Shown: in pieces, positions 9,955 through 23,123 of the stretch
How positions within the stretch are numbered: the first letter of the stretch is position 1
How the letters are laid out: every line of letters begins with the position of its first letter
Source of the DNA: a virus
DNA: 23,310 nucleotides
IMG/VR virus record: IMGVR_UViG_3300017989_000452
Location: 1-23,310 of that record
Reading direction: 5' to 3' (one strand)
Notes under the pieces: generated by a model
Seen by the model: the letters and a program-made list of their open reading frames with translations, nothing else
Database searches by the model: none
Told to the model about the DNA's origin: nothing
Position numbers and translations under genes: made by a program

Positions 9955-10630
9955 TTGTGGCCTCCTTTTCTTGGATTAACTGTTGGATGTATGTGATTAT
10001 CTGGTCATATTGACAGGCTGCTATTTTGCTGATGGCATTGTATTTTGCTATTATGCGCCTGCGTATATCGCTATGACCATTTATAAGATCATTTATATTT
10101 TTTTCTTGCTCTTTAGATATCAACTCTTTGGGCTTTAACAAGTTTGTCGTATTTTCAAATGAATCCGGGTCCATATCGTCAGTTGGTATATTGAAGAATC
10201 CCAACAAGAAATATCTTATTGCATATGTATTATAACCCCCGATATCTTTGATATCGTCGCCAACGCCTTGGAAGTAAAGGGTTCTTTTCATCTCTTGTTT
10301 TGGATCGTCTGCATCCGTAAAAATAAATGTATATTTCATACGCACGCGCCCAAGTTGCACATTGATGTTTTCTTTGGTTTTTTTATCGAACTGTGTTCTC
10401 TCTACGTCGCTGGTATCCATTTCTTCAATTTCATAAGATAACAAAACGTTTAGCTCATCCATTTTGGGGCGTAACAGTCCTAATAGGACGCTCCCTTTTG
10501 CGTAATTGTAGTTAAAACTTTTTTCTCCCTTTTTAAGGTATGTGACCTGTTTGCGGATTTCGATCAACTTTTGATGCAGATTTAATTTTTGTGGTTTTTG
10601 TTCTTTTTTTTCTTTTTTTTCTTTAGCCAT
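9947..10630 (-). CDS. ERF-family single-strand DNA annealing protein
   Basis: The 227-residue protein has a lysine-rich start (1-15). The ERF core begins at about residue 18: HQKLIEIRKQVTYLKKGEKS, YNYAKGSVLLGLLRPKMDEL, and a beta region to about 120. A GVGDDIKDIGGYNTYAIRYFL segment and the acidic FNIPTDDMDPD motif (about 122-156) follow, matching the conserved end of the ERF domain. ERF proteins coat and anneal complementary single strands in phage recombination. The stop overlaps the start of the exonuclease gene, and both depend on the strong promoter at 10901-10929. The C-terminal 60 residues are helical and may contact partner proteins. Confidence 0.82.
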   Translation of the reverse strand: MAKEKKEKKEQKPQKLNLHQKLIEIRKQVTYLKKGEKSFNYNYAKGSVLLGLLRPKMDELNVLLSYEIEEMDTSDVERTQFDKKTKENINVQLGRVRMKYTFIFTDADDPKQEMKRTLYFQGVGDDIKDIGGYNTYAIRYFLLGFFNIPTDDMDPDSFENTTNLLKPKELISKEQEKNINDLINGHSDIRRRIIAKYNAISKIAACQYDQIITYIQQLIQEKEATND

Positions 10631-10868
10631 TTGAATCCTCCGCGTTTACTTTATTTACTGATTTTTCCGCTAGGGGAAACAGATCAATAACTATAGATTT
10701 AGATTCTTCTGCGCCAACGGTGGCAACCAGCATCCCAAGCGACAAAAACAACATAAATGAAAGCGTCTCGGTGGGGTTAAAGTTTTTTTCTGTGTATTTA
10801 TCAACCAACGCCATAAAGTCGGCTCTTACGGTATCGGTAAAATCTTCTATTTTTTTTTCTTTAGCCAT
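10623..10868 (-). CDS. Small hypothetical protein leading the recombination operon
   Basis: The 81-residue product starts after AGGAGAT and begins MAKEKK, the same six residues as the ERF protein that follows. Its centre is hydrophobic (TLSFMLFLSLGMLVATVG, about 35-52) and could be a buried helix or a membrane segment. It is the first gene after the consensus promoter at 10901-10929 and overlaps the ERF gene by 8 bases, so it may be an accessory to recombination. No family is recognised. Confidence 0.55.
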   Translation of the reverse strand: MAKEKKIEDFTDTVRADFMALVDKYTEKNFNPTETLSFMLFLSLGMLVATVGAEESKSIVIDLFPLAEKSVNKVNAEDSNG

Positions 10869-12882: not shown

Positions 12883-12911
12883 ATAATATCTCAATATCAA
12901 GAACTTGTCAA
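12883..12911 (-). promoter_or_regulatory. Leftward sigma70 promoter of the early operon
   Basis: TTGACA (12911-12906) and TATTAT (12888-12883) are 17 bases apart, one mismatch from consensus. Transcription would begin near 12876 and run into the 76-aa gene. The palindrome cluster starts about 22 bases upstream of the -35 box, so a regulator bound there could activate or repress it. Confidence 0.75.
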
Positions 12912-12933
12912 CAAAAAAACGAAAAAAAATAAT

Positions 12934-12994
12934 GTTTTTACATGTAAAACCGTTTTACATCGTGGTTTTACAGAGATTGTTTCTGGTTTTACAT
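12934..12994. promoter_or_regulatory. Operator cluster with TGTAAAAC palindrome and half-sites
   Basis: The full palindrome ATGTAAAACCGTTTTACAT is at 12942-12960. A left-hand half-site (TTTTTACAT) joins it at 12935, and two right-hand half-sites follow: GGTTTTACAG at 12964-12973 and GGTTTTACAT at 12985-12994, 21 bases apart or two helical turns. The cluster lies between the leftward and probable rightward promoters, as expected for the main switch of the region. Confidence 0.65.
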
Positions 12995-13033
12995 CAGATC
13001 TTTACGATTTCTTTAAAAAAAAAGATAAAAAGA

Positions 13034-13062
13034 TAGACGGATATTTTCCGATCGCTTATAAG
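13034..13062 (+). promoter_or_regulatory. Probable rightward promoter of the replication-type operon
   Basis: TAGACG (13034-13039) and TATAAG (13057-13062) are 17 bases apart, matching 4 of 6 and 5 of 6 consensus bases. The start site would fall near 13069, about 20 bases before the leader peptide. No better rightward candidate was found before the first gene. Confidence 0.42.
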
Positions 13063-13089
13063 CAGAATTTTAGCTCTGAGGGGGGCGGG

Positions 13090-13152
13090 ATGCGACAAAA
13101 AAGGGCACTGACCGAAGTCAGCACCCAACACGCGTCCACGGGGACAACTTAA
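13090..13152 (+). CDS. 20-residue leader peptide before the replication-type genes
   Basis: GAGG at 13078-13081 lies 8 bases before ATG 13090. The 20-codon frame (MRQKRALTEVS...) stops 8 bases before ATG 13161, which has no ribosome site of its own. That spacing would allow termination and restart. The peptide has no domain; its value would be in translation. The frame spans the terminator stem of the antisense RNA described here. Confidence 0.42.
   Translation: MRQKRALTEVSTQHASTGTT
13097..13126 (-). terminator. Leftward UUCG-loop terminator
   Basis: Ten-base-pair stem with a TTCG loop and a run of six T, read on the minus strand. There is no leftward gene to its right, so it either ends the candidate antisense RNA or guards against antisense transcription. 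Confidence 0.72.
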
Positions 13153-13205
13153 ACGTCTATATGTGCTCTAACCCAGACACATATATACAAATGGTAGTTT
13201 GTGTG
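13097..13205 (-). ncRNA. Candidate antisense RNA against the leader and first replication-type gene
   Basis: The leftward promoter at 13240-13212 would start an RNA near 13205. About 109 bases on, GGGTGCTGAC-TTCG-GTCAGTGCCC (13126-13103) forms a 10-bp stem with two G-U pairs and the very stable C(UUCG)G loop, followed by six T (13102-13097), an excellent rho-independent terminator. On the opposite strand the stem has two mismatches and no T run, so it works only leftward. The RNA would be complementary to the leader peptide frame and the first codons of the 66-aa gene. CAGACACA and TGTGTCTG (13174-13211) also form a dyad in the overlapped mRNA. Confidence 0.5.
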
Positions 13206-13361
13206 TCTGACAGTATAAAGATTAATGCAATTTCTGGCAAGTTTACAATCGTTCCAAATGAAATTTTACAAAATTCTAGTCTATTGTGGGGAGCCAAAGG
13301 GCTGCTTGCATACTGCAAGACAAAAGACTCATACGAGGTAAAGGCTGATTTATGGAATTAA
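13161..13361 (+). CDS. Short winged-helix-type protein, probably truncated
   Basis: The 66-residue product contains KFTIVPNEILQ, then LLWGAKGLLAYCKTKDSYEV and ADLWN. This is the beginning of the winged-helix domain common in phage replication proteins (first strand, then helix with AKG-LAY), but the recognition helix and wing are missing. ATG 13161 lacks a ribosome site; ATG 13191 is an alternative, also without one. Translation may depend on the leader peptide just upstream. The next gene overlaps by 10 bases. It may be the remnant of a longer replication or regulatory gene. Confidence 0.5.
   Translation: MCSNPDTYIQMVVCVSDSIKINAISGKFTIVPNEILQNSSLLWGAKGLLAYCKTKDSYEVKADLWN
13212..13240 (-). 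promoter_or_regulatory. Leftward promoter of the candidate antisense RNA
   Basis: TTGCCA (13240-13235) and TATACT (13217-13212) are 17 bases apart, each box one base from the sigma70 consensus. It lies within the coding region of the 66-aa gene and points back toward the leader. Confidence 0.55.
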
Positions 13362-13732
13362 AGCGCAGCTTCGAGGGCATTTTTATTTCAAATCAAGTAC
13401 GCAGCCAAAAAAGTTTAACATCGACAGAAAAATTTCTGTTGGCAGTTATCAAAAGGCTGTGCTCTAGCAGAAAGCATTGCTTAGAAACTAATGCTTTTTT
13501 CACAAAAAATCTTGGTGTTTCTCTGTCGACTGTGAAGCGCGGACTTCGCAAGCTACAGAAGTTAAATCTAATTATTATTACATACGATTTGAAAGAAAGA
13601 CGAATCGTAATCAATTTAAATCAACTGGGCGAGATACAAAAAAAAGAGGCCGACCGAAGCGCCAGCCTCCAAAAAAATGCCCATACAACCATAAGGAAAA
13701 AAGATGAGCATTATGCGAACTATTCACGATAA
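13352..13732 (+). CDS. Helix-turn-helix DNA-binding protein
   Basis: The 126-residue product has the layout of small phage helix-turn-helix proteins: first strand FEGIFISNQV (7-16), helix SLTSTEKFLLAVIKRL (21-36), CLETNAFFTKNLGVS (43-57) as the second helix and turn, STVKRGLRKLQKLNLI (59-74) as recognition helix, and a beta wing (KERRIVINL). The C-terminal 35 residues are polar and basic. It overlaps genes on both sides, so it is made together with the larger winged-helix protein that follows. It is a candidate for the protein that binds the TGTAAAAC palindromes or the replication origin. Confidence 0.7.
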   Translation: MELKRSFEGIFISNQVRSQKSLTSTEKFLLAVIKRLCSSRKHCLETNAFFTKNLGVSLSTVKRGLRKLQKLNLIIITYDLKERRIVINLNQLGEIQKKEADRSASLQKNAHTTIRKKDEHYANYSR

Positions 13733-14759
13733 GAATAATCCATATGTCATATTAAACACAACCATTTATTCCAGAAATAAAAATTCTCACAAAAAATTAT
13801 CTGCCCGAGCCATCGGGATCTGGTCTTATGCGATGTCTCTCCCCGACTCATGGAAATTCAATATGAGCGACCTCGTTTCAAGATTTTCTGAGGGTAGGGA
13901 CGCAATTCGTCGCGCGCTGAAACAGTTAGAAGAGGCGGGATATCTGCATAGAATGCCGAAAAGGGATCAGAAAACAGGAAAGATGCTTGGCCACGAATGG
14001 TACTTTTTTGAGACTTCTCGGGAAAAGGTAGACAATTTAGATATAATTTCACAAGACACTGAAGAAGAAGAAGATACCGACAGCCTGGAAAACGACGACA
14101 CCGACGGACTGGAAACCCGCACGTCGGTAAACCCTCCCCTTAGTAATAATAAGTATAGTAAATATCCAAAAGAAATACATACTAACGTATGTATAAAGAA
14201 AGATCGCAAGCGATCTTCTTCACCCCCGCCAAAGCCAAGAAAAAAGAAAGAAAAAAAATCCAAAGAGCTGACTCCTGAGCAAAGGGATGCTTTGGTCAAG
14301 CAGCATGGCGAAGAGATGACGGCGCGGGCTATAGCTCATCTTGCAGAGTACAAAGAGTCGCTTGAAAAGCCATACAAGTATACAGACTTCTGGGCTATAA
14401 AGCGCTGGGTGATAACGGCTTTGAGAGAGAAAGACTTGAGAGAAGCAGAGCTGAAGCAGAGAGAGGAGCGATTACGGAAATACCAGGCAAAAAGTGCTGA
14501 TAACCAGGCACTTAAGTGCGCATTTGAACCGGAGATGAAGTCATTCTTGACGAAAGCACAGACGCAGCATACGCAGGCTGTCTTTGGAGGAGTAGACGCA
14601 GCGAGAGACTTGCGCTTCTTTGTCGACTACGATAAGGGAGTTGTGAAGATCGGACACAAGGGAGCGAGACTTGACGTATACACAGCAGACCAGATCTTTG
14701 CATGCCCTAACCCACTGAGGGAGCACGTCCTCAAGGAAGCACGCAGATGGGGGACGTGA
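13704..14759 (+). CDS. Winged-helix replication initiation-type protein
   Basis: The 351-residue protein opens with NPYVILNTTIYS and a winged helix at about 30-105: LSARAIGIWSYAMSLPDSW, then DLVSRFSEGRDAIRRALKQL as turn and recognition helix, then GYLHRMPKRD and a wing. An acidic linker (115-140), a Lys/Pro-rich stretch (163-187), and a C-terminal helical domain with YKYTDFWAIKRWVITAL follow. Phage replication initiators or helicase loaders often combine an N-terminal winged helix with a C-terminal Y-x-D-x2-AI-x2-WV helix, so a role at the origin is likely. It starts after AAGGA at 13704. The last third is much richer in G and C than the first, suggesting a mosaic origin. Confidence 0.66.
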   Translation: MSIMRTIHDKNNPYVILNTTIYSRNKNSHKKLSARAIGIWSYAMSLPDSWKFNMSDLVSRFSEGRDAIRRALKQLEEAGYLHRMPKRDQKTGKMLGHEWYFFETSREKVDNLDIISQDTEEEEDTDSLENDDTDGLETRTSVNPPLSNNKYSKYPKEIHTNVCIKKDRKRSSSPPPKPRKKKEKKSKELTPEQRDALVKQHGEEMTARAIAHLAEYKESLEKPYKYTDFWAIKRWVITALREKDLREAELKQREERLRKYQAKSADNQALKCAFEPEMKSFLTKAQTQHTQAVFGGVDAARDLRFFVDYDKGVVKIGHKGARLDVYTADQIFACPNPLREHVLKEARRWGT

Positions 14760-16831: not shown

Positions 16832-16848
16832 TGTAAAACGGTTTTACA
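16832..16848. promoter_or_regulatory. TGTAAAAC-G-GTTTTACA palindrome
   Basis: A perfect 8-bp dyad around one central G fills almost the whole 21-base gap between two genes and ends one base before ATG 16850. It is the same sequence, in the opposite orientation, as at 12942, 17076 and 23107. No good promoter overlaps it. Confidence 0.65.
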
Positions 16849-16849
16849 T

Positions 16850-17080
16850 ATGAAAAAAGAAACAGCTGAAAAACTGGAAAGACGACGAAAAGAGAAAGAG
16901 AAGCGAATACTGGCTAAAATGCGAGAACTTGGCAGGGAAGTAGTGGTTGTGGAATCTAAGATAGAGACTGTCAATGACATAATCGAACTTTTGGTTGAAG
17001 AGCGAGAGCATATACTTAAGTCACTGGTAAGCATAAAGAAAACGATCGAAAAAGAGAAGAAAAGTTTTTTTGAGTTGTAA
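16850..17080 (+). CDS. Small coiled-coil protein bracketed by palindromes
   Basis: The 76-residue product is a highly charged coiled coil (AEKLERRRKEKEKRILAKMREL, then ETVNDIIELLVEEREHILKSL). ATG 16850 has no Shine-Dalgarno sequence; the palindrome sits exactly where one would be. Its stop codon lies inside a second copy of the palindrome. It could be translated by restart from the previous gene, 21 bases upstream. The function is unknown. Confidence 0.48.
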   Translation: MKKETAEKLERRRKEKEKRILAKMRELGREVVVVESKIETVNDIIELLVEEREHILKSLVSIKKTIEKEKKSFFEL

Positions 17081-17092
17081 AACCGTTTTACA
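17076..17092. promoter_or_regulatory. TGTAAAAC-C-GTTTTACA palindrome before rtcB
   Basis: Perfect 8-bp dyad around one central C, containing the stop codon of the coiled-coil gene and ending before the AAGGAG ribosome site of rtcB. A protein bound here could act as a roadblock to transcription into rtcB. Confidence 0.65.
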
Positions 17093-17105
17093 TTTAAGGA
17101 GTAAC

Positions 17106-18269
17106 ATGTATAAGATTGAAACTGAAGGGCTTGACATTCTATCATGGTGTGAAGATATCGAGGATTCAGCACTACAGCAAGCCAAGAATCTGGCGATGCT
17201 GCCTTTTGCGGAAAGACACATCGCTTTGATGCCTGATTGTCATGCTGGCTACGGAATGCCCATAGGGGGTGTTTTAGCAGCCCGTGACGTGATTGTTCCG
17301 AATGCAGTTGGTGTTGACATTGGTTGCGGTGTGATAGCCTGTAAAACGACCATAAAGGACATTTCAGATGGTGACATTAAAAGAGCGATGTCTATCATAA
17401 GAAAGAAGATTCCGGTCGGCTTTAACCATCACGAAGAAGATCAAGAGTGGGATGGCTTCTATGATGCTCCAGATTGCTATATCGTTAATAAAGAGCTGGG
17501 TTCCGCGAGAAAGCAACTCGGTACTCTTGGAGGCGGTAACCACTTCATTGAAATACAACGTGGTGAAGATGGCTGTATCTGGGTCATGATTCATAGCGGA
17601 AGCCGTAATATTGGGTTGAAGATCGCAAAGTGGTACTCTGAGCTAGCTGATGCTATGTGTAAAAAGTGGCACTCGGCAATACCAACCTTTAACAAACAAG
17701 ACTCTTTAGCCTTTTTTCCGGTATCTAGCAGCGAAGGGAACGAATATCTTGAGTGTATGGACTTTGCGTTATATTTTGCATCACAGAATAGAAGGCTGAT
17801 GATGGATCGGTGTATTGAGTCATTAATAGAGACCGATTTAGAATTTGCTACAGGTGAGTATCTTGAAAGCGTGCACAACTTTGCCGAATTTGGTTGGGTT
17901 AATGGTGACGATTGTTGGGTACATAGAAAAGGCGCAACATCAGCTTTTACAGACATGATTGCTATAATACCCGGATCACAAGGCACAGCGTCTTACATCG
18001 CTCGCGGACTTGGAAACTGCAAGTCTTTTTTCTCGTGTTCGCATGGTGCTGGGCGTAAGATGTCTAGGGCAAAAGCAAGAGCAATTCTTTCTTTAGAAGA
18101 AGAAAAGAAAAAGTTAGATGATTTGGGCATTATTCATGCAATACGGACGCAAAAAGATCTAGATGAGGCTCCTTCAGCGTACAAAGACATTGACGAAGTC
18201 ATGGCTGCTCAAAGTGATCTAGTTGAAGTAGTAGAAAAGTTAATACCGATAGCAGTAATCAAGGGGTGA
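17106..18269 (+). CDS. rtcB: RtcB-family RNA-splicing ligase
   Basis: The 387-residue protein starts at ATG 17106, 5 bases after AAGGAG. It holds the RtcB motif set in order: PDCHAGYGMPIGGV (43-56), GVDIGCGV (69-76, Asp71 and Cys74 metal ligands), GTLGGGNHF (139-147, His146), IHSGSRNIG (162-170, His163), HNFAEFG (257-263), HRKGATSA (273-280), GSQGTASY (290-297), and CSHGAGRKMSR (311-321) with His313 as the expected guanylylated residue. RtcB joins 2',3'-cyclic phosphate or 3'-phosphate and 5'-OH RNA ends using GTP and Mn. The length fits the shorter RtcB group. In a phage it could repair tRNAs cut by host anticodon nucleases. No archease gene is present. All active-site residues are kept. Confidence 0.9.
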   Translation: MYKIETEGLDILSWCEDIEDSALQQAKNLAMLPFAERHIALMPDCHAGYGMPIGGVLAARDVIVPNAVGVDIGCGVIACKTTIKDISDGDIKRAMSIIRKKIPVGFNHHEEDQEWDGFYDAPDCYIVNKELGSARKQLGTLGGGNHFIEIQRGEDGCIWVMIHSGSRNIGLKIAKWYSELADAMCKKWHSAIPTFNKQDSLAFFPVSSSEGNEYLECMDFALYFASQNRRLMMDRCIESLIETDLEFATGEYLESVHNFAEFGWVNGDDCWVHRKGATSAFTDMIAIIPGSQGTASYIARGLGNCKSFFSCSHGAGRKMSRAKARAILSLEEEKKKLDDLGIIHAIRTQKDLDEAPSAYKDIDEVMAAQSDLVEVVEKLIPIAVIKG

Positions 18270-23106: not shown

Positions 23107-23123
23107 TGTAAAACCGTTTTACA
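23107..23123. promoter_or_regulatory. TGTAAAAC-C-GTTTTACA palindrome with upstream half-site
   Basis: The perfect palindrome lies 25 bases before ATG 23149, with a half-site TGTAAAACC at 23081-23089. It matches the sites at 12942, 16832 and 17076. Confidence 0.62.

Follow-up and report, generated by a model that had tools for sequence, protein, structure and literature searches.

Strand-specific leftward terminators and a start-codon hairpin preceding phage replication-type genes, with a possible oop-like antisense RNA

The computational analysis of a 23,310-base linear virus record (IMGVR_UViG_3300017989_000452, an incomplete fragment, the whole of which is called the window here) showed that two leftward terminators in front of phage replication-type genes are real, and that the mRNA hairpin enclosing the start codon of the first of these genes is real as well. 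Just 5' of the replication genes of this uncultured virus of bacteria, these elements are accompanied by a candidate leftward promoter and a short leader ORF, and the closest known layout is that of lambda pO-oop-tO, a phage system.

Leftward recombination genes (ERF, YqaJ) occupy 7.8 to 12.8 kb of the window, and rightward from 13.16 kb lie the replication-type genes, followed by RusA and RtcB. The features of the region are the following:

13034 to 13062, plus strand: candidate rightward promoter, TAGACG-17-TATAAG, 9/12
13090 to 13152, plus strand: 20-codon leader ORF MRQKRALTEVSTQHASTGTT, ATG at 13090, TAA at 13150-13152
13126 to 13103, minus strand: leftward intrinsic terminator 1, GGGTGCTGAC-TTCG-GTCAGTGCCC, then TTTTTT to 13097; 10 bp, UUCG loop
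13097 to 13205, minus strand: proposed antisense RNA of about 109 nt, drawn from the candidate promoter and terminator 1
13155 to 13188, plus strand: predicted mRNA hairpin around AUG 13161, GUCUAUAUGUG..CACAUAUAUAC, with the 5-nt loop AACCC
13240 to 13212, minus strand: candidate leftward promoter, TTGCCA-17-TATACT, 10/12, inside ORF 13161
13161 to 13361, plus strand: first replication-type ORF, 66 aa at most, matching phage initiator N termini
13352 to 13732, plus strand: HTH_36 winged-helix replication-type ORF, 126 aa (phrog_270, E 2.5e-8)
13670 to 13645, minus strand: leftward UUCG terminator 2, antisense to the end of ORF 13352
13704 to 14759, plus strand: main phage replication initiator or DnaD-like helicase loader, 351 aa (phrog_186, E 8e-18)

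A first-pass annotation of the same DNA had described the leftward promoter, terminator 1, the leader, the 13161 start, and the rightward promoter, and each of them was found in place; terminator 2 and the start-codon hairpin had escaped it. The three successive ORFs overlap, with the start of ORF 13352 overlapping the end of ORF 13161 by 10 nt and the start of gene 13704 lying inside the end of ORF 13352; ORFs 13352 and 13704 each have their own ribosome site.

Leftward terminators and their surroundings

The folding energy of terminator 1 is -17.6 kcal/mol on the minus strand versus -11.3 on the plus strand (z -5.41), and that of terminator 2 is -17.8 kcal/mol on the minus strand versus -6.9 on the plus strand (z -4.14), since G-U wobble pairs exist only in the minus-strand RNA. 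The minus strand folds much better, and terminator 1 is therefore a genuine leftward stop; in both terminators the leftward direction is set by the stem structure as well as by the T-run. Moreover, hairpin-plus-T sites of at least 9 bp and at least 6 GC occur twice in the window versus 0.0 times per dinucleotide-shuffled window, which places the previously annotated UUCG terminator with six T far above chance. Terminator 1 sits 35 nt upstream of the ATG of ORF 13161 and terminator 2 sits 34 nt upstream of the ATG of 13704. Terminators of this strength are infrequent elsewhere: 110 other viral loci, 1.6 Mb in all, contain just 23, of which only 2 were embedded antisense between opposite-strand genes.

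Other readings of the stems were considered. A rightward attenuator at 13103-13126 was ruled out because no T-run follows the stem on the plus strand. An origin of the two terminators by duplication is not shown: the stems are 76% alike over 21 nt, but BLASTP aligns nothing between 13161 and 13704. The only Rfam matches, to sbrA and ncr1241, are below threshold and fall on the terminator stem, and they were rejected. In another locus (L071:4414-4445), a terminator-like stem precedes a phage replication initiation gene by 57 nt and is a possible oop-like site; it was not counted as a further example, since it reads as a terminator on both strands. Lv-1, with a leftward stop 74 nt before its initiator, was likewise not counted and may terminate both ways too.

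From the candidate promoter, leftward transcription would be expected to start near 13205. Promoter sites scoring at least 10/12 number 17 in the window versus 13.2 +/- 4.1 in shuffles, and 5.4% of local 204-nt shuffles hold a comparable leftward promoter, so that the candidate is, by itself, weak evidence and not above chance. No 10/12 promoter was found serving terminator 2, and for this reason the terminators may stop transcripts arising elsewhere. The whole proposed antisense RNA has a folding energy of -35.9 kcal/mol (z -3.18), with a z of -0.62 once the terminator part is removed; by its position, it would span codon 3 of the leader and all that follows up to and including the next start, leaving out the leader ribosome site. 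The two strand-specific leftward terminators give good support to an antisense transcript stopping before the replication-type genes; the transcript itself is something that we infer. Of the previously suggested RNA of about 110 bases, the terminator stands on firm ground and the promoter lies within chance.

To the left of the module lies a divergent control region with the following features:

12883 to 12911, minus strand: promoter of the leftward recombination operon, TTGACA-17-TATTAT, 11/12
12905 to 12933, plus strand: rightward promoter, TTGTCA-17-AATAAT, with its -35 overlapping the -35 of the leftward promoter
12933 to 12995, plus strand: half-site cluster TGTAAAAC/GTTTTACA, a candidate operator just downstream of the rightward -10, including the palindrome at 12943-12959

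Two divergent promoters with overlapping -35 boxes are found between the recombination and replication operons (12883-12933). Farther into the leftward operon, at 10929-10901, there is a perfect leftward consensus promoter (TTGACA-17-TATAAT with a TG extension), just before gene 10623-10868. The exact 17-bp palindrome TGTAAAACSGTTTTACA occurs four times in the window (12943-12959, 16832-16848, 17076-17092, and 23107-23123): three copies lie 1 to 25 nt before a start codon and the fourth lies in the half-site cluster at the divergent promoters. The palindrome precedes the RtcB RNA ligase gene of the rightward operon (17070-18269, 59% to locus L048). Furthermore, the palindrome is repeated in other phage contigs (L007/L018/L020/L026; L014/L022/L029; L013; L015), often 10 to 50 nt upstream of ORFs, and by tblastn these contigs share no proteins with the window. 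It looks like a dispersed operator, comparable to the stoperators or start-associated sequences of mycobacteriophages.

Leader, start-codon hairpin, and first replication-type ORF

The leader ORF has a strong ribosome site, TGAGGGGGG, at 13077-13085 (-11.6 kcal, 4 nt before ATG 13090). A leader-like ORF arises in 5.9% of local shuffles, and in the mRNA fold that is predicted the AUG of the leader is base-paired too. The next ATG, at 13161, lies 8 nt past the leader stop, lacks a proper ribosome site, and is enclosed by the hairpin at 13155-13188, which has a z of -6.06, with none of 200 shuffles as good, and which ranks first (z -7.71) in a 43-nt window scan of both strands restricted to folds of -10 kcal/mol or lower. 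Its AACCC loop matches a GGGUU loop that the antisense RNA could form. On reaching the end of the leader at 13150-13152, a ribosome would occupy the 5' arm of this hairpin, as translational coupling requires. Translational coupling between the leader and 13161 is plausible because of the strong leader ribosome site, the 8-nt gap, and the position of the next AUG within a significant hairpin. The hairpin is a stronger clue than any in the earlier annotation, the interpretation of which is partly supported.

Residues 28 to 66 of ORF 13161 match the initiator of locus L045 (41% over 41 aa), and the ORF matches phrog_11718 with an E value of 0.007; it retains no more than the initial part of the winged-helix domain of phage initiators and stops short of the recognition helix. 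Because it ends there, ORF 13161 (66 aa or less) is a truncated initiator domain and not a replication protein of the RepA kind. Members of the initiator family usually start at a point equivalent to about 13191-13203, not at 13161, which makes 13161 uncertain as the true start.

No close relative of the region was found when viral contigs were scanned with the 13352, ERF, and 13704 proteins, genomes were scanned with 13704, and terminator patterns were searched (IMG/VR, GTDB). A profile of the initiator N terminus retrieved only relatives at 35 to 46%, an RtcB search gave 80 loci with next to no further content in common with the window, and a DNA-level search of phage and plasmid records gave no match. 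Within the Legionellales, 17 of 143 genomes hold initiator relatives, and a comparable module is absent from all of the initiator loci fetched from this order. About 30 distant relatives of 13704 (phages, Legionella plasmids, Piscirickettsia) showed no comparable strand-specific leftward terminator upstream, an absence that says little because only about 100 residues are shared, at 30 to 46% identity.

A tentative antisense control and its alternatives

As the best reading of the region, it is possible to hypothesize, tentatively and at a level just short of an even chance, that an oop-like antisense RNA tunes the leader-coupled translation of the first replication-type ORF. Transcription from the leftward promoter inside the start of ORF 13161 would end at the strong UUCG terminator 35 nt upstream of this ORF and yield an RNA of about 109 nt; the RNA would be the exact complement of the leader, from the third codon onward, and of the start-codon hairpin, and would itself carry a hairpin complementary to 13155-13188. 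When the RNA is scarce, ribosomes translating the 20-codon leader would halt 8 nt short of the buried AUG and open the hairpin, after which they could enter 13161 and then, by overlap, 13352 and 13704. When the RNA is abundant, with many genome copies present, it would pair with the leader mRNA, block the coupling, and expose the mRNA to double-strand cleavage, and initiator output would fall as copy number rises. In this scheme we infer the RNA, its promoter, the translation of the leader, the coupling, and the effect on replication.

The oop-like reading is supported by the two strand-specific terminators, 35 and 34 nt upstream of initiator-type ORFs where none would be expected, by the AUG hairpin as the most significant in the window, and by the combination of the leader ribosome site (-11.6 kcal), the 8-nt gap, the missing proper site at 13161, and the three overlapping ORFs; a positive control on lambda, which recovers pO and tO, supports it too. 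Against it stand the promoter and the leader, each a 5 to 6% chance event, the pairing of the leader AUG, the truncation of ORF 13161 together with the ribosome sites that 13352 and 13704 have of their own, the family starts near 13191-13203, and the roughly 30 distant relatives.

The same terminators could instead be insulators, halting stray or promoter-driven antisense transcription of the rightward operon before it can invade the divergent control region and, beyond that, the leftward recombination operon, with no specific regulatory RNA and with the leader and the promoter due to chance. We regard this as somewhat unlikely. It fits the facts that only one of the two terminators has a promoter-like site nearby, that the leftward operon with its near-consensus promoter (12911) adjoins directly on the left, and that the promoter and the leader could each have arisen by chance, but it leaves unexplained both the AUG-bearing hairpin and the near-equal placement of the terminators, 34 to 35 nt before two initiator-type ORFs. 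A further alternative is promoter interference, in which a collision of the leftward promoter with rightward transcription would set the timing of origin activation, as proposed for lambda pO, with the RNA in a minor role. In its favor, the layout matches lambda, in which pO mutations alter replication via rightward transcription and the oop RNA itself was considered to matter little for replication (PMC3985674). Against it, convergent promoters alone would require neither the leader nor the start-codon hairpin, and gene 13704 showed no iteron-type origin; we consider such interference distinctly improbable here. A true copy-number control of the IncFII or I-complex type, inherited by a phage-plasmid, would account for a leader, a hidden start codon, and an antisense RNA in series, and the initiator has relatives (about 38 to 41%) on conjugative plasmids of Legionella and on one plasmid of Piscirickettsia that bears a capsid gene. 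These plasmid relatives lack the module, clostridial phages match equally well, no Rfam plasmid antisense family matches, and no partition, relaxase, or integrase gene was recognized in the window; inheritance of this kind seems very unlikely.

A bolder version of the oop-like reading would have the phage independently build the full R1/ColIb-style switch, with antisense RNA, leader peptide, and a start codon hidden in a hairpin, upon a layout like that of lambda oop, set another antisense stop in the same position before the working initiator, and meter its replication by genome copy number; we think it unlikely. Copy-number control by an antisense RNA and a coupled leader is known from plasmids, and the closest antisense RNA of a phage replication region that we considered, lambda oop, plays a debated part in replication. 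If a phage did join both, copy sensing by RNA would also be used by viruses, and a small, testable module of about 200 bp would be at hand for studying how lytic or episomal phages meter replication. If the terminators are insulators instead, the region would show a phage fencing its divergent control region from antisense transcription.

Comparison with plasmid copy control and with lambda

In IncFII plasmids, CopA prevents the translation of tap, to which repA translation is coupled (PMC12779154). Like the CopA/tap/repA system of R1, the region examined here presents an antisense RNA (proposed), a short leader, and a replication-type ORF without a good ribosome site; as far as the layout goes, a leader with a ribosome site ends beside a start lacking one, and the coupled start region lies in a stable hairpin (13155-13188). 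Different from R1, the putatively coupled ORF is a truncated initiator domain, 13704 is a winged-helix DnaD-like protein and not RepA, and the context is that of a phage. Furthermore, the R1 antisense RNA prevents leader translation, whereas the RNA proposed here would leave the leader ribosome site uncovered. Rfam scans up to E = 1 gave no plasmid antisense family and no CopA match. Membership in IncFII is not supported, since an Rfam family and a RepA-type initiator were both looked for and neither was found; the leader and the hidden start codon do resemble the IncFII layout.

In the I-complex plasmid ColIb-P9, which has inc RNA, repY, and repZ, the start region is hidden in a hairpin and the leader stop is close by. 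The window resembles it in the hidden start, the nearby leader stop, and the possibility of complementary hairpin loops, and departs from it in having a different initiator and no detectable sequence similarity.

The idea of a phage-plasmid rests only on the distant homology (about 40%, N-terminal) of the 13704 initiator, whose relatives, at about 38 to 41%, include proteins of conjugative Legionella plasmids and of a Piscirickettsia plasmid carrying a capsid gene; clostridial phages match 13704 as well as the plasmid proteins do, and partition, relaxase, and integrase genes were not recognized in the 23-kb linear, incomplete fragment. Extrachromosomal mycobacteriophage prophages have RNA-based origins in which an initiator RNA, beside parABS, replaces the Rep protein (PMC7157519). 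The likeness to these prophages would be a phage replication tied to a noncoding RNA (here proposed) near the replication region; different from them, initiator-type proteins are present here and no partition genes were seen.

The nearest known precedent is a phage system. When identical promoter and terminator scans were applied to lambda as a positive control, they recovered pO (TTGAGT-17-CATAAT), which spans the start codon of O, as well as tO, a stem of 11 bp and -16.0 kcal/mol that precedes O by 58 nt; the same terminator scan gives 10 bp, -15.5, and 35 nt here. Since these scans recover pO and tO and the stems are alike in strength, the layout can be said to match lambda pO-oop-tO, and the 'separate invention' of an IncFII layout suggested in the earlier reading is not needed. 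The shared elements are a leftward promoter that lies at the beginning of a replication gene or within that beginning (in the window a 10/12 pattern, within chance alone), a short leftward RNA (here proposed), and, a short way upstream of the gene, a strong leftward terminator. The activity of lambda pO affects replication, both of phage and of plasmid, by tempering rightward transcription, and the oop RNA is antisense to cII mRNA and acts via RNase III (PMC3985674, PMC5869508). Different from oop, which overlaps the end of cII, the RNA proposed here would overlap the 20-codon leader and the hidden start codon; upstream of the module there is no cII-like gene, and the leader ORF takes that place. 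The RNA, at about 109 nt, would be somewhat longer than oop, the window has a second leftward terminator at the next initiator gene, and no sequence homology to lambda oop was found. It is plausible that the leader and the hidden start codon add a coupling of the R1/ColIb kind to an oop-like layout.
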